This document shows, piece by piece, positions 17,508 through 36,019 of a stretch of 64,000 nucleotides of DNA. The notes below the pieces were generated by a model. It saw only the letters and a program-made list of their open reading frames with translations, made no database searches and was not told where the DNA came from. Both the position numbers and the translations under genes were made by a program. The first letter of the stretch is position 1. Every line of letters begins with the position of its first letter. The DNA comes from Pythium myriotylum. Its lineage: Eukaryota; Oomycota; Peronosporomycetes; Pythiales; Pythiaceae. The stretch spans positions 2,480,001 to 2,544,000 of the forward strand of contig JALJCQ010000009.1 in the NCBI GenBank assembly GCA_023091665.1, given 5' to 3'.

Positions 17508-20500
17508 TCAGTTTTTCTTCATGATCTCGCGTTCCATGTCTAAATCACGGATGGTGATTGTGTATGGCGGTGTTTTTCTGTTTGAGGGGGCCTCTTGGAT
17601 CATTTGCTCAATTGTCGACGGTGTCGCATCGAGAGGTACGTTTTGCCCACACACTTGAAGCACAGCCTGGCCCAATTTGATCATGCCTGAACGTTCAGCT
17701 GGGCCCGCACTCGAGATGAAAACTCGAACAAATGCAGCCTCGTCCTTCCAGTTCCCAAAAAGAATTCCGAGAGGGGCTTTCGGGAAAACTACCTCGTTCT
17801 GGACTTCAAACTGGAGGTCATCTTCTTCGGGCGCTCTCGTCTCGGGGTCAATTGAGGAGGATGGAGCAGCTGCGTCGTCTTCGCCGTTATTGGACACAAC
17901 GGTGTGCTCGGCTTTTTCTGTCTGGGGTGCCTTTCTACTCGCAGCCCATGACTTGACCTGTGCAACATACTCATCTTTTTGCACAAAGATTGCACGCATG
18001 GGTTGCTTCTCGCTAGCGATGTGCTTCAACTTCTCCATGATGCTGTTGAAGTTCTTTTGTGCCGGTGATATCATCACCGTGTCATTCACTTTCCATAGAA
18101 TATCCCCGCGATCGACGACATGACTTTTCTGAGCAAATGAAGGCTCACGAACAAAAGCCGAAACAACTACGTAGCTTCTTCCGTCTGCAGCTTCTTCATC
18201 CGACTGCTCCCACTCAATCATCGGCGGCCAATCGTGAAGTTTCACGACTCCGTCCGGTGTAGAAGCAAAGTGTAGAGTTGCGGGACGTTTCTTCGTGTCT
18301 TTCAGAATGTTCATGATCTCGGAAAGATCCTTGAACCGCAAATCGACATCATTGATCCTTGTAAGTATCTGTCCTGGTTGGATCTTCCCACTTAGCTCTG
18401 CCGCACACTTCTTTCCGTCTGGTCCGGGTTCAGCAAACCCCAACACAATAGCTCCGTACGGAGCGAGAGGTCGATTACGAAGGCGCAATCCGAAGGGGCC
18501 ATCTTGCTTGAAGACGACACTCACCAATTCCGGGCGAGTGATTACACGTTGTTGCCGATTCTTGGTCGTATCCTCCGGTACCAAAGAAAATCTAATTGTG
18601 TAAGGGAGTGGAAGCGTTGTCAGCAAGCTTGTAAACTCCTCAAGAGTGAGCTTGTTGCACGCGAGCCCGTTTATTGCGAGGGCACCTGCTCCAATAGGTA
18701 CTCGTGATAAATCAGCCGTGCCATTGACGCTTCCAGAAGCTTCCAGGTCCAAGATACGGCTGACTACGATATAGCGGTTGAGTACCCCCTTCGCAAACTG
18801 GAACGGGATCTTACCGCGTTCAACAAATGTACACTCTATCTCGTGTGGTTGGATGTCAATTTCCTTCGCTCCTCTCCAAGCACTCGCAGACGGAAGATCC
18901 TCCACACGGATGTCCAACAACTGGAATACTAGTGGCCAGTATTTCTCCATTTGGTCGTTGAGTGTCGTGATCAGCTTGATCATGTGTTTGAGTAATTTGC
19001 TCTCCATCGTTTTGCTTAGGTAGTCTCGAATGAGTTCACCAAAAGCCGAGGTCAACAGATTATAGATTGCGCTGAACCAGCTGCCCTGCACCGTTATCTT
19101 CAGCTCTTCACGAATCTCAATCTCTATCGAGTTCAGTACCAATGTTGGCTTGAATTCGCCAGTCTCCTTATTCAGAATTCGTTTCTCGGCCTTGAAACCT
19201 AGCGAGATCACTCCTCCAGCGAGCTCCGCATCTGCAAAGCCGCCACCATGGGCGTACGGGAAGTATTTTTGAGCGAACGTCCACTGGAATCCTTTGAGTA
19301 ACGCGGTAAGGTGGGTGGCTCTGACTGTAAACAATTCTTCGTCCGCTACAGTCCCCATCCGGACTTTAACGCGTTCTTTGCGAACGCGAAAGTTTGATAG
19401 ATCGAGCTTCGACAACGAATACTCAACTCCCTCTTCGACCCCAGCGATGGTATCTACCTTGATCGTTGGTAGAACTGACATGAAGAAGTCGAGACAGTGA
19501 TTCTTCACCCGATCTACAAACTCCTGGCGCTTTTCTCGGTCTCTCGTCAGCGTGCTGCCCCATGCAGCTATCTTATCTAGTTGCACTTCAGATATGGCTT
19601 TCTGCACATTCTCACAAAAGGCGTCAGGGTTTTCAACAGACTGAACAAGCTGCTTTGCTTGCTTGATTAGAGCCTGTCCTTGGCTCGTTTGCTGAAATTG
19701 CGCAAGGTATTTTTCACCCGACTCCCTTAACATTTCAGCTTGAACAGTGAGCTGGGGAATTAGCTCTTCAGCCTTGGAGATCAGCTGCTTAGGCTCGAGA
19801 TTGGTCAACGACTCGACACCTAGCTTCGCACTTGCCAACTGTTCAAGGTGGGTAAGTGCTTGTTGCGCTTTAACTAGCTCTCCCTCGTACTTTTGAATCG
19901 TGTCATAAATGCGCTCTCTCTCGAGCGTGCCCTTTACAAAGTCAAATTTGTCTCGTTGGGCCTCAGCCTTGTCTTCCAACGTAGCAATGAACTGAGATAG
20001 CACAAGTTTTTGTTGCTGGAAGTCTTGCTTTTGAATCTCACGCTTCGCAGTCTCAAGTTCACTCGAGGCCTTCGACCGTAAGCTAGCTTGAAAATTGCGC
20101 ACCTCGGAACTGTCTTTTAGCTTGCTCAGAACAGTCGTTGCCTGTGTGAAGAAGGCCGAGATGTCCTTGCCGTCTAGCAGTTCCGACTCCAGTGTTGTCC
20201 TCGCTGAGTTTGCGATCGCCTTCAGTTTCTGAATCTCAGTCTCTCCCACCGACTTTAATCGAGACGTGGCGTCCGCTAGCGTTGGATCAAACAAAGACCC
20301 AAGCAACTGCGAGTACTGGTCACTATATGCGGCATTTGTGGAAAGGAAAGAGATCGCATCCGCGTGTTGTTCACACATCATCTGGACAGCCGTGTACGTC
20401 TGTTGAGCCTTTGCGTGGAGCGACGCGGCGTCCTCGCGTGTGATTCGCCCTTGAAATTCTTCAAATATTGCATCAGCGGTCATGGGCTTTGGGACGCGCG

Positions 20501-20639
20501 AAAGGAGCCGCAAATCTACGGCTGAAATTTCTTGTGACTGAATCAAAGAAACCACTGAGTGTATCTGATCAAGTGGATTATGCTTGTTTTTGTAAGCACT
20601 CACCAAAAAATATCCAATTCCTCCAAAATCGAGTTGCAC
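17508..20639 (-). CDS. Coiled-coil, TULIP-like lipid-binding and multi-PDZ protein
   Basis: Convergent with the EF-hand gene (40 bp gap). Residues ~55-390 are helical, Gln/Lys/Glu-rich coiled coil. Residues ~430-580 (AGGVISLGFKAEKRI, then NSIEIEIREELKITVQGSWF, then SAIYNLLTSAFGELIRDYL) look like a BPI/TULIP lipid-transfer fold. PDZ-like modules follow at ~700-795 (GPFGLRLRNRPL; GKIQPGQILTRINDVDL), ~815-890 (RGDILWKVNDTVM) and ~945-1033 (APLGILFGNW; AERSGMIKLGQAVLQVCGQ). The start is unresolved. The open frame begins with GTG at 20637-20639 and its first in-frame ATG is at 20481-20483. A 66-nt segment beginning GTGAGT at 20601-20603 and ending in CAG looks like an in-frame intron, so the true N-terminus probably lies in an upstream exon. 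Role unknown; membrane-associated scaffold or lipid carrier is inference. Confidence 0.75.
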   Translation of the reverse strand: MQLDFGGIGYFLVSAYKNKHNPLDQIHSVVSLIQSQEISAVDLRLLSRVPKPMTADAIFEEFQGRITREDAASLHAKAQQTYTAVQMMCEQHADAISFLSTNAAYSDQYSQLLGSLFDPTLADATSRLKSVGETEIQKLKAIANSARTTLESELLDGKDISAFFTQATTVLSKLKDSSEVRNFQASLRSKASSELETAKREIQKQDFQQQKLVLSQFIATLEDKAEAQRDKFDFVKGTLERERIYDTIQKYEGELVKAQQALTHLEQLASAKLGVESLTNLEPKQLISKAEELIPQLTVQAEMLRESGEKYLAQFQQTSQGQALIKQAKQLVQSVENPDAFCENVQKAISEVQLDKIAAWGSTLTRDREKRQEFVDRVKNHCLDFFMSVLPTIKVDTIAGVEEGVEYSLSKLDLSNFRVRKERVKVRMGTVADEELFTVRATHLTALLKGFQWTFAQKYFPYAHGGGFADAELAGGVISLGFKAEKRILNKETGEFKPTLVLNSIEIEIREELKITVQGSWFSAIYNLLTSAFGELIRDYLSKTMESKLLKHMIKLITTLNDQMEKYWPLVFQLLDIRVEDLPSASAWRGAKEIDIQPHEIECTFVERGKIPFQFAKGVLNRYIVVSRILDLEASGSVNGTADLSRVPIGAGALAINGLACNKLTLEEFTSLLTTLPLPYTIRFSLVPEDTTKNRQQRVITRPELVSVVFKQDGPFGLRLRNRPLAPYGAIVLGFAEPGPDGKKCAAELSGKIQPGQILTRINDVDLRFKDLSEIMNILKDTKKRPATLHFASTPDGVVKLHDWPPMIEWEQSDEEAADGRSYVVVSAFVREPSFAQKSHVVDRGDILWKVNDTVMISPAQKNFNSIMEKLKHIASEKQPMRAIFVQKDEYVAQVKSWAASRKAPQTEKAEHTVVSNNGEDDAAAPSSSIDPETRAPEEDDLQFEVQNEVVFPKAPLGILFGNWKDEAAFVRVFISSAGPAERSGMIKLGQAVLQVCGQNVPLDATPSTIEQMIQEAPSNRKTPPYTITIRDLDMEREIMKKN

Positions 20640-20827
20640 GACGTACGAGTCACTTTCGAATCTACCCGTACCATTTGATCAGATTGTTGAATAGGTCAAA
20701 ATAATCACAGCGCACATGAAGCAGCAAACTCAATTGACTACCTGTAGTCGCGTACATCAGCGAGTCCAAACTTCGTCCGGACGCGGGTGCCAGTCGCCAG
20801 GCGGAGTAGCTGCTTCTATCACTTTCA

Positions 20828-23772: not shown

Positions 23773-24015
23773 AGTTTAACGTGAACATCGCCGAAAGCAC
23801 CAACATGCCCACGTATATTTCATACATATTCAGAATGGATTGCAATATCTTTCGTTTTCTTCGCCTTCGCCCCACTCAATTAGTTCTTCACTTGCGAGTC
23901 CGTGAGATGCGAGTCACTAAACGAGGCACCGAATCGCTCTAGTACAAAGCGCGGCTTCAGATCTGGCTCCTTTTTCACAAAAGAGGCGAAAAACTGATTG
24001 ATAGGGTCATTTATG

Positions 24016-24116
24016 TCGAGACGTGGGGACTGTCTTCCGGCTAGCTATCGACGACAGCTTCGCCCTCGGTGCTTTCCCCCAGTCGACTTCCGAGCTGTTT
24101 GTTTTGTTGGCACCAT
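24016..24116 (-). pseudogene. Truncated, frameshifted H3-tail-mimic ORF at the array edge
   Basis: Start codon at 24114-24116 as in the full copies, but one C is missing in the run at about 24075-24080. This shifts the frame within the GGK of the tail, and homology stops after about 35 codons at the array boundary. Non-functional edge copy. Confidence 0.8.
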
Positions 24117-24144
24117 GTTTCTCCCAAGGTGCAAAAGGAAAAAT

Positions 24145-24223
24145 GGCCGGTATCGAACCCGGGACCGTTTCGCCCAGGAATCCCTAATCCATCGGCCTTA
24201 TTTATCACTATGCTATGACGCAC
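24145..24223 (-). repeat. tRNA-derived SINE-like segment, leading partial unit
   Basis: Same Pol III boxes as the full units: B box at 24149-24159, A box at 24205-24215. Preceded in its own orientation by an 18-nt A tract. Confidence 0.7.
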
Positions 24224-24378
24224 TACGACCATTCTTTTTTTTTTTTTTTTTTGACAAGTCACCCCAATCGCCCAACCTCATCCACAAGTAGTACACCTGT
24301 AAAATATTCATCGACGAGGTAAAAAAAGAGTAGTCAAAGTCATATTAACCCCACTTAATACAGACACTTCAAACTAAA

Positions 24379-24552: not shown

Positions 24553-24697
24553 ATAGCCGCCAAAATGGACTGCGAGTGTCGCCTACGGCGACATGGTGGA
24601 TCAAAGAGGCCACGAGACATGGTGATAGTGGGAGGGGGTTTATGGACCAGGTCACGTTGAAGGTTGGATGGTCGGTTGAGGTGATGAGCTCAAGGGG
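24553..24697. repeat. 145-bp module shared in inverted orientation with array 2
   Basis: This segment is the reverse complement, with scattered substitutions, of 35874-36019 in array 2. It includes the 15-nt palindrome GTCGCCTACGGCGAC (6-bp stem, 3-nt loop). It recurs once per unit. Confidence 0.9.
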
Positions 24698-24794: not shown

Positions 24795-25517
24795 TTATAT
24801 TACTGTTGTCGACCAACACTTCGATGCGCTTATGTAAATGTAAATAACCGTAATCGAGTCATAGTTTGTTTGTAGATACCTCCGTCGACCGAAAAACACC
24901 GAGTGAAACGAGACTGCAGCACGTACAGCGTGGAACCCACACAGACCATCGGGGCTGACACCGTCGTACTTCTTACCCCACGTTTGGGAGGCCAGGAACG
25001 TCCACAGATCGGTCTCGTCCGATGCCATGAAGCCACGAATACACTCGAACCACGGTGCACCTGTACCACCCTTCTCAGTCAAGCTGTGCAAAGCAACCCA
25101 CTCCTGGACACCGTCCATCCACTCGACGAGGGCACCACGAGTATCATCCAGCAACTTCACCGTGCGCACGACGCGCAGTCGATCACTCGCCACCTTCCTC
25201 AACTCCTTGCTTGAAAACTCGTCGGCACGATGCTTCGTCGAAGGGGCAACCATTGGCACAATCGTGGTGACTTGCTGAACCTTAAACGTGACCGTATACT
25301 CGACCGTCTTCTGCGAGCGCGATACGCGTTGATCCTCGTCAGTCTTCTCTCGCGGAAGGCGATCCGCCCGATCAGCATGCACCTCCCCCATGCGCTGCCT
25401 TGCTTCCACATCAACAGTCGAGGTGGGGGCTGTCTTCCGGCTAGCTATCGACGACAGCTTCGCCCTCGGTGCTTTCCCCCCAGTCGACTTCCGAGCTGTT
25501 TGTTTTGTTGGCACCAT
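24795..25517 (-). CDS. Histone H3-tail mimic protein, copy 1 (240 aa)
   Basis: Starting at the ATG (25515-25517), the product reads MVP then TKQTARKSTGGKAPR, then AKLSSIASRKTAP. Removing Met puts every residue in H3 numbering: K4, R8, K9, S10, K14, R17, R26, K27, P30. Differences from H3 include A1V, R2P, K18A, Q19K and changes at 21-28. No histone fold follows (H3 is ~136 aa). Residues ~110-150 (RTVKLLDDTRGALVEW, DGVQEWVALHSL) resemble a chromo/Tudor-type beta barrel. DGLCGFHAV at 190-198 resembles the DGxC active-site loop of OTU cysteine proteases and is cut off soon after. The last ~25 residues look like read-through of non-coding DNA. The ATG has a strong context (AAACATGG). I infer a truncated retroelement or host-derived ORF; whether it is translated is unknown. 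Confidence 0.75.
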   Translation of the reverse strand: MVPTKQTARKSTGGKAPRAKLSSIASRKTAPTSTVDVEARQRMGEVHADRADRLPREKTDEDQRVSRSQKTVEYTVTFKVQQVTTIVPMVAPSTKHRADEFSSKELRKVASDRLRVVRTVKLLDDTRGALVEWMDGVQEWVALHSLTEKGGTGAPWFECIRGFMASDETDLWTFLASQTWGKKYDGVSPDGLCGFHAVRAAVSFHSVFFGRRRYLQTNYDSITVIYIYISASKCWSTTVI

Positions 25518-25539
25518 GTTTCTCCCAAGGTGCAAAAGG

Positions 25540-25544
25540 AAAAA
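25540..25544 (-). terminator. T5 Pol III-type terminator after the tRNA-like segment
   Basis: Five T on the minus strand directly follow the tRNA-like 3' end, 22 nt before the ORF start codon. A Pol III transcript from the internal boxes would be expected to end here and exclude the ORF. Confidence 0.5.
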
Positions 25545-25623
25545 TGGCCGGTATCGAACCCGGGACCGTTTCGCCCAGGAATCCCTAATCCATCGGCCTT
25601 ATTTATCACTATGCTATGACGCA
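25545..25623 (-). repeat. tRNA-derived SINE-like segment with A and B boxes, unit 1
   Basis: The B box GGTTCGATACC (25550-25560) matches the consensus exactly. The A box TAGCATAGTGA (25606-25616) has one deviation. They are 56 nt apart start to start, which would fit a tRNA with a long variable arm. The T stem pairs only partly and no acceptor stem forms, so it is a tRNA-derived element, not a working tRNA. A 17-nt A tract lies just upstream in its own orientation, as at retroposon joints. The H3-mimic ATG starts 28 nt downstream. Confidence 0.75.
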
Positions 25624-26194
25624 CTACGACCATTCTTTTTTTTTTTTTTTTTGACAAGTCACCCCAATCGCCCAACCTCATCCACAAGTAGTACACCTGT
25701 AAAATATTCATCGACGAGGTAAAAAAAGAGTAGTCAAAGTCATATTAACCCCACTTAATACAGACACTTCAAACTAAAACTAGACCACACGGCCAACATC
25801 ACCAATTACACGTCCATAAAACATACTCCAACATAAGCGCATCACACACACATACACACACACATACACACACACATACATACACACATATATACATACA
25901 TACATACATACATACATACATACATACATACATACATACATACACACGATTTATAGCCGCCAAAATGGACTGCGAGTGTCGCCTACGGCGACATGGTGGA
26001 TCAAAGAGGCCACGAGACATGGTGATAGTGGGAGGGGGTTTATGGACCAGGTCACGTTGAAGGTTGGATGGTCGGTTGAGGTGATGAGCTCAAGGGGTCA
26101 AAACGGGATGAAAAAAAAACTTGTAGTGGTTTCGCAGACTTGAGTGCCAATGGATAAGTAGAGGCTTTACGACGGATAAAAGGCTCGATTCCCG

Positions 26195-26917
26195 TTATAT
26201 TACTGTTGTCGACCAACACTTCGATGCGCTTATGTAAATGTAAATAACCGTAATCGAGTCATAGTTTGTTTGTAGATACCTCCGTCGACCGAAAAACACC
26301 GAGTGAAACGAGACTGCAGCACGTACAGCGTGGAACCCACACAGACCATCGGGGCTGACACCGTCGTACTTCTTACCCCACGTTTGGGAGGCCAGGAACG
26401 TCCACAGATCGGTCTCGTCCGATGCCATGAAGCCACGAATACACTCGAACCACGGTGCACCTGTACCACCCTTCTCAGTCAAGCTGTGCAAAGCAACCCA
26501 CTCCTGGACACCGTCCATCCACTCGACGAGGGCACCACGAGTATCATCCAGCAACTTCACCGTGCGCACGACGCGCAGTCGATCACTCGCCACCTTCCTC
26601 AACTCCTTGCTTGAAAACTCGTCGGCACGATGCTTCGTCGAAGGGGCAACCATTGGCACAATCGTGGTGACTTGCTGAACCTTAAACGTGACCGTATACT
26701 CGACCGTCTTCTGCGAGCGCGATACGCGTTGATCCTCGTCAGTCTTCTCTCGCGGAAGGCGATCCGCCCGATCAGCATGCACCTCCCCCATGCGCTGCCT
26801 TGCTTCCACATCAACAGTCGAGGTGGGGGCTGTCTTCCGGCTAGCTATCGACGACAGCTTCGCCCTCGGTGCTTTCCCCCCAGTCGACTTCCGAGCTGTT
26901 TGTTTTGTTGGCACCAT
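26195..26917 (-). CDS. Histone H3-tail mimic protein, copy 2
   Basis: Same 240-aa product as copy 1, without amino-acid difference. ATG at 26915-26917. Confidence 0.75.
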   Translation of the reverse strand: MVPTKQTARKSTGGKAPRAKLSSIASRKTAPTSTVDVEARQRMGEVHADRADRLPREKTDEDQRVSRSQKTVEYTVTFKVQQVTTIVPMVAPSTKHRADEFSSKELRKVASDRLRVVRTVKLLDDTRGALVEWMDGVQEWVALHSLTEKGGTGAPWFECIRGFMASDETDLWTFLASQTWGKKYDGVSPDGLCGFHAVRAAVSFHSVFFGRRRYLQTNYDSITVIYIYISASKCWSTTVI

Positions 26918-26944
26918 GTTTCTCCCAAGGTGCAAAAGGAAAAA

Positions 26945-27023
26945 TGGCCGGTATCGAACCCGGGACCGTTTCGCCCAGGAATCCCTAATCCATCGGCCTT
27001 ATTTATCACTATGCTATGACGCA
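26945..27023 (-). repeat. tRNA-derived SINE-like segment, unit 2
   Basis: Boxes as in unit 1 (B box 26950-26960, A box 27006-27016). Confidence 0.72.
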
Positions 27024-27606
27024 CTACGACCATTCTTTTTTTTTTTTTTTTTGACAAGTCACCCCAATCGCCCAACCTCATCCACAAGTAGTACACCTGT
27101 AAAATATTCATCGACGAGGTAAAAAAAGAGTAGTCAAAGTCATATTAACCCCACTTAATACAGACACTTCAAACTAAAACTAGACCACACGGCCAACATC
27201 ACCAATTACACGTCCATAAAACATACTCCAACATAAGCGCATCACACACACATACACACACACATACACACACACATACATACACACATATATACATACA
27301 TACATACATACATACATACATACATACATACATACATACATACATACATACATACACACGATTTATAGCCGCCAAAATGGACTGCGAGTGTCGCCTACGG
27401 CGACATGGTGGATCAAAGAGGCCACGAGACATGGTGATAGTGGGAGGGGGTTTATGGACCAGGTCACGTTGAAGGTTGGATGGTCGGTTGAGGTGATGAG
27501 CTCAAGGGGTCAAAACGGGATGAAAAAAAAACTTGTAGTGGTTTCGCAGACTTGAGTGCCAATGGATAAGTAGAGGCTTTACGACGGATAAAAGGCTCGA
27601 TTCCCG

Positions 27607-28329
27607 TTATATTACTGTTGTCGACCAACACTTCGATGCGCTTATGTAAATGTAAATAACCGTAATCGAGTCATAGTTTGTTTGTAGATACCTCCGTCGA
27701 CCGAAAAACACCGAGTGAAACGAGACTGAAGCACGTACAGCGTGGAACCCACACAGACCATCGGGGCTGACACCGTCGTACTTCTTACCCCACGTTTGGG
27801 AGGCCAGGAACGTCCACAGATCGGTCTCGTCCGATGCCATGAAGCCACGAATACACTCGAACCACGGTGCACCTGTACCACCCTTCTCAGTCAAGCTGTG
27901 CAAAGCAACCCACTCCTGGACACCGTCCATCCACTCGACGAGGGCACCACGAGTATCATCCAGCAACTTCACCGTGCGCACGACGCGCAGTCGATCACTC
28001 GCCACCTTCCTCAACTCCTTGCTTGAAAACTCGTCGGCACGATGCTTCGTCGAAGGGGCAACCATTGGCACAATCGTGGTGACTTGCTGAACCTTAAACG
28101 TGACCGTATACTCGACCGTCTTCTGCGAGCGCGATACGCGTTGATCCTCGTCAGTCTTCTCTCGCGGAAGGCGATCCGCCCGATCAGCATGCACCTCCCC
28201 CATGCGCTGCCTTGCTTCCACATCAACAGTCGAGGTGGGGGCTGTCTTCCGGCTAGCTATCGACGACAGCTTCGCCCTCGGTGCTTTCCCCCCAGTCGAC
28301 TTCCGAGCTGTTTGTTTTGTTGGCACCAT
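27607..28329 (-). CDS. Histone H3-tail mimic protein, copy 3 (Ala to Ser variant)
   Basis: Identical to copy 1 except one alanine to serine change (HAVRASV in place of HAVRAAV) near residue 201, caused by a single substitution. The only amino-acid variant among the eight complete copies. Confidence 0.75.
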   Translation of the reverse strand: MVPTKQTARKSTGGKAPRAKLSSIASRKTAPTSTVDVEARQRMGEVHADRADRLPREKTDEDQRVSRSQKTVEYTVTFKVQQVTTIVPMVAPSTKHRADEFSSKELRKVASDRLRVVRTVKLLDDTRGALVEWMDGVQEWVALHSLTEKGGTGAPWFECIRGFMASDETDLWTFLASQTWGKKYDGVSPDGLCGFHAVRASVSFHSVFFGRRRYLQTNYDSITVIYIYISASKCWSTTVI

Positions 28330-28356
28330 GTTTCTCCCAAGGTGCAAAAGGAAAAA

Positions 28357-28435
28357 TGGCCGGTATCGAACCCGGGACCGTTTCGCCCAGGAATCCCTAA
28401 TCCATCGGCCTTATTTATCACTATGCTATGACGCA
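28357..28435 (-). repeat. tRNA-derived SINE-like segment, unit 3
   Basis: Boxes as in unit 1 (B box 28362-28372, A box 28418-28428). Confidence 0.72.
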
Positions 28436-29010
28436 CTACGACCATTCTTTTTTTTTTTTTTTTTGACAAGTCACCCCAATCGCCCAACCTCATCCACAAG
28501 TAGTACACCTGTAAAATATTCATCGACGAGGTAAAAAAAGAGTAGTCAAAGTCATATTAACCCCACTTAATACAGACACTTCAAACTAAAACTAGACCAC
28601 ACGGCCAACATCACCAATTACACGTCCATAAAACATACTCCAACATAAGCGCATCACACACACATACACACACACATACACACACACATACATACACACA
28701 TATATACATACATACATACATACATACATACATACATACATACATACATACATACATACACACGATTTATAGCCGCCAAAATGGACTGCGAGTGTCGCCT
28801 ACGGCGACATGGTGGATCAAAGAGGCCACGAGACATGGTGATAGTGGGAGGGGGTTTATGGACCAGGTCACGTTGAAGGTTGGATGGTCGGTTGAGGTGA
28901 TGAGCTCAAGGGGTCAAAACGGGATGAAAAAAAAACTTGTAGTGGTTTCGCAGACTTGAGTGCCAATGGATAAGTAGAGGCTTTACGACGGATAAAAGGC
29001 TCGATTCCCG

Positions 29011-29733
29011 TTATATTACTGTTGTCGACCAACACTTCGATGCGCTTATGTAAATGTAAATAACCGTAATCGAGTCATAGTTTGTTTGTAGATACCTCCG
29101 TCGACCGAAAAACACCGAGTGAAACGAGACTGCAGCACGTACAGCGTGGAACCCACACAGACCATCGGGGCTGACACCGTCGTACTTCTTACCCCACGTT
29201 TGGGAGGCCAGGAACGTCCACAGATCGGTCTCGTCCGATGCCATGAAGCCACGAATACACTCGAACCACGGTGCACCTGTACCACCCTTCTCAGTCAAGC
29301 TGTGCAAAGCAACCCACTCCTGGACACCGTCCATCCACTCGACGAGGGCACCACGAGTATCATCCAGCAACTTCACCGTGCGCACGACGCGCAGTCGATC
29401 ACTCGCCACCTTCCTCAACTCCTTGCTTGAAAACTCGTCGGCACGATGCTTCGTCGAAGGGGCAACCATTGGCACAATCGTGGTGACTTGCTGAACCTTA
29501 AACGTGACCGTATACTCGACCGTCTTCTGCGAGCGCGATACGCGTTGATCCTCGTCAGTCTTCTCTCGCGGAAGGCGATCCGCCCGATCAGCATGCACCT
29601 CCCCCATGCGCTGCCTTGCTTCCACATCAACAGTCGAGGTGGGGGCTGTCTTCCGGCTAGCTATCGACGACAGCTTCGCCCTCGGTGCTTTCCCCCCAGT
29701 CGACTTCCGAGCTGTTTGTTTTGTTGGCACCAT
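29011..29733 (-). CDS. Histone H3-tail mimic protein, copy 4
   Basis: Same product as copy 1. ATG at 29731-29733. Confidence 0.75.
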   Translation of the reverse strand: MVPTKQTARKSTGGKAPRAKLSSIASRKTAPTSTVDVEARQRMGEVHADRADRLPREKTDEDQRVSRSQKTVEYTVTFKVQQVTTIVPMVAPSTKHRADEFSSKELRKVASDRLRVVRTVKLLDDTRGALVEWMDGVQEWVALHSLTEKGGTGAPWFECIRGFMASDETDLWTFLASQTWGKKYDGVSPDGLCGFHAVRAAVSFHSVFFGRRRYLQTNYDSITVIYIYISASKCWSTTVI

Positions 29734-29760
29734 GTTTCTCCCAAGGTGCAAAAGGAAAAA

Positions 29761-29839
29761 TGGCCGGTATCGAACCCGGGACCGTTTCGCCCAGGAATCC
29801 CTAATCCATCGGCCTTATTTATCACTATGCTATGACGCA
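29761..29839 (-). repeat. tRNA-derived SINE-like segment, unit 4
   Basis: Boxes as in unit 1 (B box 29766-29776). Confidence 0.72.
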
Positions 29840-30414
29840 CTACGACCATTCTTTTTTTTTTTTTTTTTGACAAGTCACCCCAATCGCCCAACCTCATCCA
29901 CAAGTAGTACACCTGTAAAATATTCATCGACGAGGTAAAAAAAGAGTAGTCAAAGTCATATTAACCCCACTTAATACAGACACTTCAAACTAAAACTAGA
30001 CCACACGGCCAACATCACCAATTACACGTCCATAAAACATACTCCAACATAAGCGCATCACACACACATACACACACACATACACACACACATACATACA
30101 CACATATATACATACATACATACATACATACATACATACATACATACATACATACATACATACACACGATTTATAGCCGCCAAAATGGACTGCGAGTGTC
30201 GCCTACGGCGACATGGTGGATCAAAGAGGCCACGAGACATGGTGATAGTGGGAGGGGGTTTATGGACCAGGTCACGTTGAAGGTTGGATGGTCGGTTGAG
30301 GTGATGAGCTCAAGGGGTCAAAACGGGATGAAAAAAAAACTTGTAGTGGTTTCGCAGACTTGAGTGCCAATGGATAAGTAGAGGCTTTACGACGGATAAA
30401 AGGCTCGATTCCCG

Positions 30415-31137
30415 TTATATTACTGTTGTCGACCAACACTTCGATGCGCTTATGTAAATGTAAATAACCGTAATCGAGTCATAGTTTGTTTGTAGATACC
30501 TCCGTCGACCGAAAAACACCGAGTGAAACGAGACTGCAGCACGTACAGCGTGGAACCCACACAGACCATCGGGGCTGACACCGTCGTACTTCTTACCCCA
30601 CGTTTGGGAGGCCAGGAACGTCCACAGATCGGTCTCGTCCGATGCCATGAAGCCACGAATACACTCGAACCACGGTGCACCTGTACCACCCTTCTCAGTC
30701 AAGCTGTGCAAAGCAACCCACTCCTGGACACCGTCCATCCACTCGACGAGGGCACCACGAGTATCATCCAGCAACTTCACCGTGCGCACGACGCGCAGTC
30801 GATCACTCGCCACCTTCCTCAACTCCTTGCTTGAAAACTCGTCGGCACGATGCTTCGTCGAAGGGGCAACCATTGGCACAATCGTGGTGACTTGCTGAAC
30901 CTTAAACGTGACCGTATACTCGACCGTCTTCTGCGAGCGCGATACGCGTTGATCCTCGTCAGTCTTCTCTCGCGGAAGGCGATCCGCCCGATCAGCATGC
31001 ACCTCCCCCATGCGCTGCCTTGCTTCCACATCAACAGTCGAGGTGGGGGCTGTCTTCCGGCTAGCTATCGACGACAGCTTCGCCCTCGGTGCTTTCCCCC
31101 CAGTCGACTTCCGAGCTGTTTGTTTTGTTGGCACCAT
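30415..31137 (-). CDS. Histone H3-tail mimic protein, copy 5
   Basis: Same product as copy 1. ATG at 31135-31137. Confidence 0.75.
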   Translation of the reverse strand: MVPTKQTARKSTGGKAPRAKLSSIASRKTAPTSTVDVEARQRMGEVHADRADRLPREKTDEDQRVSRSQKTVEYTVTFKVQQVTTIVPMVAPSTKHRADEFSSKELRKVASDRLRVVRTVKLLDDTRGALVEWMDGVQEWVALHSLTEKGGTGAPWFECIRGFMASDETDLWTFLASQTWGKKYDGVSPDGLCGFHAVRAAVSFHSVFFGRRRYLQTNYDSITVIYIYISASKCWSTTVI

Positions 31138-31164
31138 GTTTCTCCCAAGGTGCAAAAGGAAAAA

Positions 31165-31243
31165 TGGCCGGTATCGAACCCGGGACCGTTTCGCCCAGGA
31201 ATCCCTAATCCATCGGCCTTATTTATCACTATGCTATGACGCA
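31165..31243 (-). repeat. tRNA-derived SINE-like segment, unit 5
   Basis: Boxes as in unit 1 (B box 31170-31180). Confidence 0.72.
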
Positions 31244-31818
31244 CTACGACCATTCTTTTTTTTTTTTTTTTTGACAAGTCACCCCAATCGCCCAACCTCA
31301 TCCACAAGTAGTACACCTGTAAAATATTCATCGACGAGGTAAAAAAAGAGTAGTCAAAGTCATATTAACCCCACTTAATACAGACACTTCAAACTAAAAC
31401 TAGACCACACGGCCAACATCACCAATTACACGTCCATAAAACATACTCCAACATAAGCGCATCACACACACATACACACACACATACACACACACATACA
31501 TACACACATATATACATACATACATACATACATACATACATACATACATACATACATACATACATACACACGATTTATAGCCGCCAAAATGGACTGCGAG
31601 TGTCGCCTACGGCGACATGGTGGATCAAAGAGGCCACGAGACATGGTGATAGTGGGAGGGGGTTTATGGACCAGGTCACGTTGAAGGTTGGATGGTCGGT
31701 TGAGGTGATGAGCTCAAGGGGTCAAAACGGGATGAAAAAAAAACTTGTAGTGGTTTCGCAGACTTGAGTGCCAATGGATAAGTAGAGGCTTTACGACGGA
31801 TAAAAGGCTCGATTCCCG

Positions 31819-32541
31819 TTATATTACTGTTGTCGACCAACACTTCGATGCGCTTATGTAAATGTAAATAACCGTAATCGAGTCATAGTTTGTTTGTAGA
31901 TACCTCCGTCGACCGAAAAACACCGAGTGAAACGAGACTGCAGCACGTACAGCGTGGAACCCACACAGACCATCGGGGCTGACACCGTCGTACTTCTTAC
32001 CCCACGTTTGGGAGGCCAGGAACGTCCACAGATCGGTCTCGTCCGATGCCATGAAGCCACGAATACACTCGAACCACGGTGCACCTGTACCACCCTTCTC
32101 AGTCAAGCTGTGCAAAGCAACCCACTCCTGGACACCGTCCATCCACTCGACGAGGGCACCACGAGTATCATCCAGCAACTTCACCGTGCGCACGACGCGC
32201 AGTCGATCACTCGCCACCTTCCTCAACTCCTTGCTTGAAAACTCGTCGGCACGATGCTTCGTCGAAGGGGCAACCATTGGCACAATCGTGGTGACTTGCT
32301 GAACCTTAAACGTGACCGTATACTCGACCGTCTTCTGCGAGCGCGATACGCGTTGATCCTCGTCAGTCTTCTCTCGCGGAAGGCGATCCGCCCGATCAGC
32401 ATGCACCTCCCCCATGCGCTGCCTTGCTTCCACATCAACAGTCGAGGTGGGGGCTGTCTTCCGGCTAGCTATCGACGACAGCTTCGCCCTCGGTGCTTTC
32501 CCCCCAGTCGACTTCCGAGCTGTTTGTTTTGTTGGCACCAT
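31819..32541 (-). CDS. Histone H3-tail mimic protein, copy 6
   Basis: Same product as copy 1. ATG at 32539-32541. Confidence 0.75.
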   Translation of the reverse strand: MVPTKQTARKSTGGKAPRAKLSSIASRKTAPTSTVDVEARQRMGEVHADRADRLPREKTDEDQRVSRSQKTVEYTVTFKVQQVTTIVPMVAPSTKHRADEFSSKELRKVASDRLRVVRTVKLLDDTRGALVEWMDGVQEWVALHSLTEKGGTGAPWFECIRGFMASDETDLWTFLASQTWGKKYDGVSPDGLCGFHAVRAAVSFHSVFFGRRRYLQTNYDSITVIYIYISASKCWSTTVI

Positions 32542-32568
32542 GTTTCTCCCAAGGTGCAAAAGGAAAAA

Positions 32569-32647
32569 TGGCCGGTATCGAACCCGGGACCGTTTCGCCC
32601 AGGAATCCCTAATCCATCGGCCTTATTTATCACTATGCTATGACGCA
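32569..32647 (-). repeat. tRNA-derived SINE-like segment, unit 6
   Basis: Boxes as in unit 1 (B box 32574-32584). Confidence 0.72.
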
Positions 32648-33218
32648 CTACGACCATTCTTTTTTTTTTTTTTTTTGACAAGTCACCCCAATCGCCCAAC
32701 CTCATCCACAAGTAGTACACCTGTAAAATATTCATCGACGAGGTAAAAAAAGAGTAGTCAAAGTCATATTAACCCCACTTAATACAGACACTTCAAACTA
32801 AAACTAGACCACACGGCCAACATCACCAATTACACGTCCATAAAACATACTCCAACATAAGCGCATCACACACACATACACACACACATACACACACACA
32901 TACATACACACATATATACATACATACATACATACATACATACATACATACATACATACATACATACACACGATTTATAGCCGCCAAAATGGACTGCGAG
33001 TGTCGCCTACGGCGACATGGTGGATCAAAGAGGCCACGAGACATGGTGATAGTGGGAGGGGGTTTATGGACCAGGTCACGTTGAAGGTTGGATGGTCGGT
33101 TGAGGTGATGAGCTCAAGGGGTCAAAACGGGATGAAAAAAAAACTTGTAGTGGTTTCGCAGACTTGAGTGCCAATGGATAAGTAGAGGCATTACGACGGA
33201 TAAAAGGCTCGATTCCCG

Positions 33219-33941
33219 TTATATTACTGTTGTCGACCAACACTTCGATGCGCTTATGTAAATGTAAATAACCGTAATCGAGTCATAGTTTGTTTGTAGA
33301 TACCTCCGTCGACCGAAAAACACCGAGTGAAACGAGACTGCAGCACGTACAGCGTGGAACCCACACAGACCATCGGGGCTGACACCGTCGTACTTCTTAC
33401 CCCACGTTTGGGAGGCCAGGAACGTCCACAGATCGGTCTCGTCCGATGCCATGAAGCCACGAATACACTCGAACCACGGTGCACCTGTACCACCCTTCTC
33501 AGTCAAGCTGTGCAAAGCAACCCACTCCTGGACACCGTCCATCCACTCGACGAGGGCACCACGAGTATCATCCAGCAACTTCACCGTGCGCACGACGCGC
33601 AGTCGATCACTCGCCACCTTCCTCAACTCCTTGCTTGAAAACTCGTCGGCACGATGCTTCGTCGAAGGGGCAACCATTGGCACAATCGTGGTGACTTGCT
33701 GAACCTTAAACGTGACCGTATACTCGACCGTCTTCTGCGAGCGCGATACGCGTTGATCCTCGTCAGTCTTCTCTCGCGGAAGGCGATCCGCCCGATCAGC
33801 ATGCACCTCCCCCATGCGCTGCCTTGCTTCCACATCAACAGTCGAGGTGGGGGCTGTCTTCCGGCTAGCTATCGACGACAGCTTCGCCCTCGGTGCTTTC
33901 CCCCCAGTCGACTTCCGAGCTGTTTGTTTTGTTGGCACCAT
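33219..33941 (-). CDS. Histone H3-tail mimic protein, copy 7
   Basis: Same product as copy 1. Downstream of its stop it shares 'gaggcatt' with copy 1, where the other copies read 'gaggcttt', so copies 1 and 7 share a sub-variant. Confidence 0.75.
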   Translation of the reverse strand: MVPTKQTARKSTGGKAPRAKLSSIASRKTAPTSTVDVEARQRMGEVHADRADRLPREKTDEDQRVSRSQKTVEYTVTFKVQQVTTIVPMVAPSTKHRADEFSSKELRKVASDRLRVVRTVKLLDDTRGALVEWMDGVQEWVALHSLTEKGGTGAPWFECIRGFMASDETDLWTFLASQTWGKKYDGVSPDGLCGFHAVRAAVSFHSVFFGRRRYLQTNYDSITVIYIYISASKCWSTTVI

Positions 33942-33968
33942 GTTTCTCCCAAGGTGCAAAAGGAAAAA

Positions 33969-34047
33969 TGGCCGGTATCGAACCCGGGACCGTTTCGCCC
34001 AGGAATCCCTAATCCATCGGCCTTATTTATCACTATGCTATGACGCA
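33969..34047 (-). repeat. tRNA-derived SINE-like segment, unit 7
   Basis: Boxes as in unit 1 (B box 33974-33984). Confidence 0.72.
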
Positions 34048-34622
34048 CTACGACCATTCTTTTTTTTTTTTTTTTTGACAAGTCACCCCAATCGCCCAAC
34101 CTCATCCACAAGTAGTACACCTGTAAAATATTCATCGACGAGGTAAAAAAAGAGTAGTCAAAGTCATATTAACCCCACTTAATACAGACACTTCAAACTA
34201 AAACTAGACCACACGGCCAACATCACCAATTACACGTCCATAAAACATACTCCAACATAAGCGCATCACACACACATACACACACACATACACACACACA
34301 TACATACACACATATATACATACATACATACATACATACATACATACATACATACATACATACATACATACACACGATTTATAGCCGCCAAAATGGACTG
34401 CGAGTGTCGCCTACGGCGACATGGTGGATCAAAGAGGCCACGAGACATGGTGATAGTGGGAGGGGGTTTATGGACCAGGTCACGTTGAAGGTTGGATGGT
34501 CGGTTGAGGTGATGAGCTCAAGGGGTCAAAACGGGATGAAAAAAAAACTTGTAGTGGTTTCGCAGACTTGAGTGCCAATGGATAAGTAGAGGCTTTACGA
34601 CGGATAAAAGGCTCGATTCCCG

Positions 34623-35345
34623 TTATATTACTGTTGTCGACCAACACTTCGATGCGCTTATGTAAATGTAAATAACCGTAATCGAGTCATAGTTTGTTTG
34701 TAGATACCTCCGTCGACCGAAAAACACCGAGTGAAACGAGACTGCAGCACGTACAGCGTGGAACCCACACAGACCATCGGGGCTGACACCGTCGTACTTC
34801 TTACCCCACGTTTGGGAGGCCAGGAACGTCCACAGATCGGTCTCGTCCGATGCCATGAAGCCACGAATACACTCGAACCACGGTGCACCTGTACCACCCT
34901 TCTCAGTCAAGCTGTGCAAAGCAACCCACTCCTGGACACCGTCCATCCACTCGACGAGGGCACCACGAGTATCATCCAGCAACTTCACCGTGCGCACGAC
35001 GCGCAGTCGATCACTCGCCACCTTCCTCAACTCCTTGCTTGAAAACTCGTCGGCACGATGCTTCGTCGAAGGGGCAACCATTGGCACAATCGTGGTGACT
35101 TGCTGAACCTTAAACGTGACCGTATACTCGACCGTCTTCTGCGAGCGCGATACGCGTTGATCCTCGTCAGTCTTCTCTCGCGGAAGGCGATCCGCCCGAT
35201 CAGCATGCACCTCCCCCATGCGCTGCCTTGCTTCCACATCAACAGTCGAGGTGGGGGCTGTCTTCCGGCTAGCTATCGACGACAGCTTCGCCCTCGGTGC
35301 TTTCCCCCCAGTCGACTTCCGAGCTGTTTGTTTTGTTGGCACCAT
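34623..35345 (-). CDS. Histone H3-tail mimic protein, copy 8
   Basis: Same product as copy 1. Last copy before array 2; the sequence upstream of its promoter side runs into the array junction. Confidence 0.75.
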   Translation of the reverse strand: MVPTKQTARKSTGGKAPRAKLSSIASRKTAPTSTVDVEARQRMGEVHADRADRLPREKTDEDQRVSRSQKTVEYTVTFKVQQVTTIVPMVAPSTKHRADEFSSKELRKVASDRLRVVRTVKLLDDTRGALVEWMDGVQEWVALHSLTEKGGTGAPWFECIRGFMASDETDLWTFLASQTWGKKYDGVSPDGLCGFHAVRAAVSFHSVFFGRRRYLQTNYDSITVIYIYISASKCWSTTVI

Positions 35346-35873: not shown

Positions 35874-36019
35874 CCCCTCAAGTTCTCATTACCCCAACCG
35901 ACCACCCAACCCTCAATGTGACCTGGTCCAGGAACCCCCTCCCACTCTCACCGTGTCTCGTGGCTTCTTGGATCCACCATGTCGCCGTAGGCGACACTCG
36001 CAGTCCATTTTGGCGGCTA
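35874..36019. repeat. Module shared in inverted orientation with array 1 (first copy)
   Basis: Reverse complement of 24553-24697 with scattered differences, ending GGCGGCTA next to the array-2 unique region. It recurs every 1308 bp. Confidence 0.9.

Follow-up and report, generated by a model that had tools for sequence, protein, structure and literature searches.

A tandem array in a 64,000-nucleotide stretch of the Pythium myriotylum genome (G000:C9:2480001-2544000, referred to as the window; positions are window positions unless a locus is named) encodes eight nearly identical proteins that begin with an imitation of the histone H3 tail. We propose, with a probability of about 55%, that Ty1/Copia retrotransposons of this genome carry, in antisense orientation behind pol, an accessory gene whose product would offer an H3 tail to host chromatin factors, and that the array is a truncated relative of that gene, amplified in tandem.

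Eight units, each roughly 1.4 kb long and spaced 1,400 to 1,412 bases apart, follow one another in tandem on the minus strand; every unit holds one open reading frame (ORF) of 240 amino acids (aa) from ATG to stop. All eight frames are open over this length, and a search of the whole genome (58.7 Mb in 55 contigs, as in all whole-genome searches described here) returned 8 full-length matches. In a unit alignment of 1,121 bases, from which a microsatellite was left out, the eight units vary at only two sites, of which site 24917 gives an Ala to Ser change in copy 3 and site 24766 lies outside the ORF. The sequence-only reading of this DNA had claimed eight tandem 240-aa ORFs with an H3 tail, which the ORF calls and the genome search confirm, and copies identical apart from one Ala/Ser change, which is the one at site 24917. 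The strand (minus) is added here as a correction. The full copies are:

24795..25517, minus strand: array copy 1, 240-aa ORF with H3-like tail, chromo-like stretch and the Cys half of a putative peptidase-like domain
26195..26917, minus strand: array copy 2, protein as in copy 1
27607..28329, minus strand: array copy 3, protein with one Ala to Ser change
29011..29733, minus strand: array copy 4
30415..31137, minus strand: array copy 5
31819..32541, minus strand: array copy 6
33219..33941, minus strand: array copy 7
34623..35345, minus strand: array copy 8

The H3-like tail begins at the first in-frame ATG of each array ORF, and the same is true of all three tailed lineages found in this genome, namely the array and two ORFs of Copia elements, termed Copia ORF 1 and Copia ORF 3. 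Tail and H3 can be aligned collinearly for about 31 residues, and the tail sits at the start codon, as it does in H3. In copy 1 it occupies:

25425..25517, minus strand: H3-like tail of copy 1, Met plus 30 residues, recurring in each full copy

Of these 31 residues 22 are identical to host H3. In a PDB search the array tail matched histone H3 with a best E-value of 5.5e-8 over residues 1-42, and among the PDB matches listed the H3 similarity of the array protein stops between residues 33 and 59. Comparison of the array protein with Pfam at E-values up to 10 gave no family match, hence no histone fold was seen; this agrees with the earlier claim of an H3 tail without a histone fold, and for the same reason the array protein was rejected as a plain histone variant. 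Reading by eye, 17 of the first 30 H3 positions are identical in the array tail, both Copia tails and host H3 (T3, K4, Q5, T6, A7, S10 to P16, L20, A24, R26, K27 and A29). K4, S10, K14 and K27 are retained in all three tails and K9 in two of the three. Ser25 occurs in each of the tails but in none of the four host H3 genes.

The codons of the tail were compared over codons 4-30, with four H3 genes of this genome (one on C12 and three on C11; loci are given by such handles throughout) as references. The proportions of synonymous and nonsynonymous sites that differ (pS and pN) are 0.85-0.92 and 0.19 between the array tail and the four H3 genes (18.7-20.0 out of 21.8 synonymous sites, and 11.0-11.3 out of 59.2 nonsynonymous ones), to be read with the caveat that the site counts are small and that the codon habits of histone genes and elements differ, which inflates pS. 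The same pattern is found between the tails: pS 0.96 and pN 0.25 for the array and Copia ORF 1 (20.0 of 20.8 and 15.0 of 60.2 sites), and pS 0.92 and pN 0.19 for Copia ORFs 1 and 3 (18.1 of 19.7 and 11.9 of 61.3 sites). Divergence from host H3 is milder for the tails of Copia ORF 1 (pS 0.57-0.70, pN 0.33-0.34) and Copia ORF 3 (pS 0.65-0.78, pN 0.22-0.23). Fisher tests on rounded site counts gave p-values of at most 1e-6 in five of seven comparisons, including the array tail with two of the H3 genes (3e-8 and 3e-9), the array with Copia ORF 1 (1e-8) and ORF 1 with ORF 3 (2e-8); for the Copia ORF 3 tail and one H3 gene the value was 5e-4. The array tail did not arise by a recent read-in from a histone gene: nearly all synonymous sites differ from the four H3 genes and few nonsynonymous sites do, and a recent histone copy would not look so. 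Furthermore, the tails of Copia ORFs 1 and 3 are identical at 24 of 31 residues, as compared to about 35% for their bodies, and nonsynonymous differences per site amount to 0.19 for the tail as against 0.46 for the body. The third base is the same for 8 of 23 conserved tail residues, as opposed to 49 of 91 conserved residues behind the tail. These codon patterns suggest that the tail has been kept by selection.

When the genome was searched with the array protein, 17 matches were returned: the eight array copies, decayed relatives of the body where contigs C20 and C15 begin, and matches to the tail on C23, C12 and C11, the last two contigs being those of the four H3 genes. The C23 match is Copia ORF 1, which has 362 aa from the tail ATG and combines an H3-like tail with a body that differs from the array body. 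It lies antisense between pol and the 3' long terminal repeat (LTR) of an element (L052) that has LTRs of 348 bases with 99.1% identity, starting with TG and ending with CA, is flanked on both sides by the repeat CCAGT, and encodes gag-pol in a single frame of 1633 aa with an RVT_2 domain (E 8.6e-72) and Copia gag domains. The C23 element with ORF 1 therefore has the arrangement of a Ty1/Copia element with an antisense additional ORF (aORF), a classification that applies to the Copia copies only. A genome search with Copia ORF 1 gave 23 matches, including a copy on C12 with a 99% identical body; this copy is 99.2% identical to the C23 element over its whole length, and no matching target duplication was seen around it. 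On C22 (L054), a pol part about 92% identical to that of C23, the frame of which is interrupted by an insert and ends early, is followed by the antisense Copia ORF 3, of 336 aa, with an H3-like tail and a body 35% identical to that of ORF 1; at the DNA level this ORF gives no match. Hence the antisense place directly behind pol is kept in all three loci with pol at least 92% identical (C23, C12 and C22). With pol about 92% identical but no more than 35% identity between ORFs 1 and 3, the accessory ORF seems to have been exchanged between Copia elements while its place was kept. In more distant Copia loci (C30, C6 and C17, pol 66-69%), none of three has such an ORF in the 2 kb behind pol; these were drawn from 26 other pol matches as those reaching toward the pol end, with 23 left out. 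At C7 (L063:1607-1675), 69 bases match the surroundings of the Copia ORF 1 start and its upstream sequence with 86% identity.

In a PDB search at E-values up to 10, 13 of the 17 matches of the Copia ORF 3 body, which follows the tail, are chromodomains, the best being CDYL2 (E 0.003) and others including HP1. A profile built from six bodies of the family likewise gave chromodomains in 13 of 16 matches. A chromodomain is thus predicted behind the tail, clearly for one lineage (ORF 3). Further downstream, a Cys motif (NNCLFAALKLAL in ORF 3) is followed about 100 residues later by a His (AHCFVML), both aligned in Copia ORFs 1 and 3, which we read as a putative papain-fold cysteine peptidase of an OTU-like kind, with thin database support; the Copia ORF 1 body matches no Pfam peptidase family, and the C6 locus has Arg in place of the His. 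Relatives of the body also occur at C1, C6, C13, C22b and C24, those at C1 and C6 with internal stops and those at C13 and C22b as open frames of 333 and 346 aa, respectively, in which no tail was found.

The array body is nearest to the broken relatives at C20 (55 and 63% identity) and C15 (34 and 32%), in two pieces each. The array is tied to the family because these intermediates match the profile of the other bodies: C20 and C15 pieces do so with E-values of 8e-5 and 7e-4 among 198 frame pieces. In copy 1 the corresponding regions are:

25083..25187, minus strand: chromo-like stretch, approximately residues 111-145, in the piece 55% identical to the C20 relative; the label refers to its place in the family alignment only, as the array body has no PDB chromodomain match
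24888..24998, minus strand: Cys motif region, approximately residues 174-210, DGLCGFHAVRAA, which aligns with the N-terminal portion of the peptidase-like domain

The similarity of the array protein to its relatives stops near residue 210, such that the His half of the peptidase-like domain is missing. A single-sequence structure model of the array protein (predicted local distance difference test score, pLDDT, 34.5) was not used. With moderate confidence, the array protein appears to be a divergent, truncated family member with a tail, a chromo-like stretch and the Cys half. The sequence-only reading had described what follows the tail as unrelated sequence, which does not fully hold, as the decayed relatives link it to the family with a chromodomain and a cysteine-peptidase-like domain. 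The start of C15 (L026:21-1102) contains two decayed relatives of the array protein in succession and may be the edge of another array.

Several observations weigh against the array being a relative of such an accessory gene, or against parts of this proposal. The array body itself reaches only E 0.16 with the profile of the other bodies, hhalign aligns it with the Copia bodies over 28 columns at the Cys motif (probability 14%, E 0.0019), and BLASTP of the array protein with the Copia ORF proteins is significant for the tail only. The Copia ORF 1 tail has Tyr at position 9 instead of Lys9, and its comparison with a single H3 gene shows no significant synonymous excess (p 0.12). In the C12 copy the tail is broken, with changed residues, a region shorter by 16 bases, and tail and body in different frames. 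The differences between C23 and C12 are too few to judge selection, both in the ORF body (3 synonymous and 4 nonsynonymous; pS 0.014, pN 0.005) and in gag-pol (7 and 13; pS 0.006, pN 0.003). No LTR pair was found at C22 in the 10 kb read. A motif scan of seven family loci (C20, C15, C1, C24, C6, C13 and C22b) identified the tail in none of them; its two matches, in C20 and C24, are not tail-like, the C14 match was left out, and the C15 locus sits at a contig end. Pfam Chromo is below the cut-off for ORF 3 (E 0.057) and was not found in Copia ORF 1. Finally, the peptidase reading is based on the motifs and on an OTUD3 match with E 1.2 for the profile of six bodies, and ORF 1 gives a sub-threshold match to the transglutaminase-like DUF553 (E 0.075-0.096).

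The strongest alternative, to which we assign slightly less than an even chance, is that the array is a dead satellite, in which a fragment of a family gene was caught next to a tRNA-Pro-derived repeat and passively amplified along with it, making no working protein. This is compatible with the proposed nature of the Copia ORFs. The missing peptidase half fits this possibility, as does the near-identity of the eight copies at all but 2 of 1,121 sites, as expected after a recent gene conversion or passive amplification. The same holds for the adjoining array with units of about 1308 bases and tRNA-Pro genes, which has pieces of 135 and 65 bases in common with the array, and for a tRNA-Pro-like remnant upstream of the array ATG:

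25547..25590, minus strand: tRNA-Pro-like remnant, located some 30 bases 5' of the copy 1 ATG (alignment score of 40, as against at most 30 in 500 shuffles)

The remnant was scored in copy 1, the units being nearly identical, and Rfam did not detect it in the array unit. Against a dead satellite stand the eight frames that are open over 240 aa, and the comparison of the array body with the C20 relative (pS 0.62 and pN 0.26 over 67 codons), from which the array lineage was probably under selection earlier; the array copies are too similar to each other to reveal present selection. The chromatin mimic of the sequence-only reading thus stands in so far as an imitation has been kept, to judge by the codon divergence and by the two other tailed lineages next to Copia pol, but a working titration array is no more than a possibility, given the lost peptidase half and the near-identity of the copies.

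For an accessory protein that presents an H3 tail, the following mode of action can be envisaged. The accessory protein most likely would enter the nucleus. Its second residue is Ala or Val, before which the initiator Met is usually removed, and the tail would then be free as in H3. With its K4, S10, K14 and K27 it could be offered to host H3-tail writers and readers for modification or binding, the chromodomain might anchor the protein to methylated chromatin, methylated H3 included, or to the methylated tails of sister proteins, and the peptidase-like domain may act on nearby chromatin proteins. As an outcome, silencing of the element would be weakened, or the element would be steered to chromatin or an integration site. 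The array proteins keep the tail and the chromo-like part and, if made, could possibly be a decoy; we consider the array about equally likely to be a decoy source or a relic. A more specific variant, which we put forward tentatively and regard as rather unlikely, is that Copia elements encode an H3-tail mimic which is modified by host enzymes and read by its own chromodomain as a self-made mark, against silencing or for targeting, the array being a decoy bank derived from host or element.

Alternatively, a host gene family with a chromodomain, a cysteine peptidase and an H3 tail could have been caught repeatedly by Copia elements and satellites. The low identity of ORFs 1 and 3 (35%) next to a 92% identical pol indicates that the ORF moves separately, and the tailless open frames of 333 and 346 aa at C13 and C22b could belong to such a family; however, all three tailed loci outside the array have the ORF at the same place and in the same orientation behind Copia pol, and we consider this origin unlikely. 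An accidental, functionless read-in from a histone H3 gene would account for the collinearity of the tail with H3 and for its position at the start codon, yet it is very improbable in view of the near-saturated synonymous divergence with few amino-acid changes from all four host H3 genes, the same codon pattern between the tails of three lineages, the common Ser25, and the better conservation of the tail (24/31) than of the body (about 35%).

Such a read-in, lacking conservation across species, was part of what the sequence-only reading had itself named as evidence that would overturn it; the codons oppose a read-in, and the protein database yielded no relative of the body by which to judge conservation. 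In word-based searches across 5.8 billion proteins, which require shared 5-residue words, the array protein (15 matches) and Copia ORF 1 (1 match) hit histone-domain proteins only. The profile of six bodies retrieved no relative (2422 candidates), and a scan of viral contigs with the Copia ORF 3 body gave no match. This absence of body relatives may, in part, be due to the rare annotation of antisense ORFs in mobile elements.

Viral histone mimics imitate short stretches, whereas the mimic proposed here extends over about 30 residues from the start codon and is borne by a retrotransposon; if so, it would to our knowledge be among the longest histone-tail imitations outside histones. A viral example is the small hepatitis delta antigen, a parasite protein that mimics part of a histone and thereby attracts chromatin factors of the host (PMC6972770). 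The plant LTR retrotransposons Grande, RIRE2 and Retand carry an antisense aORF-3R between pol and the 3' LTR, some products of which are described as nuclear and their function as not determined; the only clear database similarities described are an SMC domain for one product and a transposase 28 domain for a different one (PMC7264820). The Copia ORFs described here likewise form an extra antisense gene between pol and the 3' LTR; in contrast to the plant aORFs as portrayed there, they occur in Copia elements and have an H3 tail followed by a predicted chromodomain and a peptidase-like domain. The proposed escape from silencing or site choice would be in line with the nuclear location of some plant products. 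For antisense extra genes of LTR retrotransposons, which that source portrays as lacking a determined function, an H3 tail retained despite near-saturated synonymous divergence and combined with a chromodomain points to a testable one, namely that a mobile element directly engages the host histone-tail machinery. Chromodomains are known in Ty3/Gypsy chromoviruses, oomycete Chronos and the diatom Copia element CoDi-I (PMC5348765), where they occur with integrase in pol, unlike the separate antisense gene with the chromodomain behind an H3 tail found here. The oomycete centromeric element CoLT is Ty1/Copia as is the C23 element, which has the antisense ORF besides; the accessible text on CoLT names GAG and POL and no extra ORF (PMC7082073). 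Captured ORFs are known in rotifer elements (PMC5408684). Among the literature matches listed, no title or start of an abstract described an H3-tail protein in a retrotransposon. PAF15/PCLAF (Pfam PF15715) has an H3-like start and matches residues 1-53 of Copia ORF 3 weakly (E 0.011, below the cut-off); a PAF15/PCLAF-like identity was rejected, since a pattern scan of three proteins found no PIP box.

Further features of the array are:

24015..24260, minus strand: ninth, partial array copy, consisting only of the tail-coding end and upstream sequence, 98% identical
25846..25944, no strand: ACAT microsatellite, of the type separating the array units
25534..25547, minus strand: site one mismatch off the oomycete initiator consensus

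A below-threshold mir-297 match in the array unit was rejected, as it represents the ACAT microsatellite only. Eleven initiator-like sites were identified in the window, nine of which are the same repeated array site, with about 0.85 expected by chance. A tblastn search with Copia gag-pol at E-values up to 1e-3 gave no match in the window, so that the array copies do not lie in such an element.

Beside the array, a long minus-strand open frame of 1,056 aa is present at 17511-20678. The second tandem array, with units of about 1,308 bases, occupies window positions 35670-64000 and continues to about C9:2577239, which by length corresponds to about 47 units in total. Within the window, to which the tRNA scan was limited, each unit carries a minus-strand tRNA-Pro(TGG) gene, which makes 21 of these genes. 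The 135-base piece common to the two arrays (24554-24688 and 35885-36019) is inverted and 92% identical, and the 65-base piece is 92% identical in the same orientation; these common pieces imply that sequence was exchanged between the two arrays or that they have a common origin.

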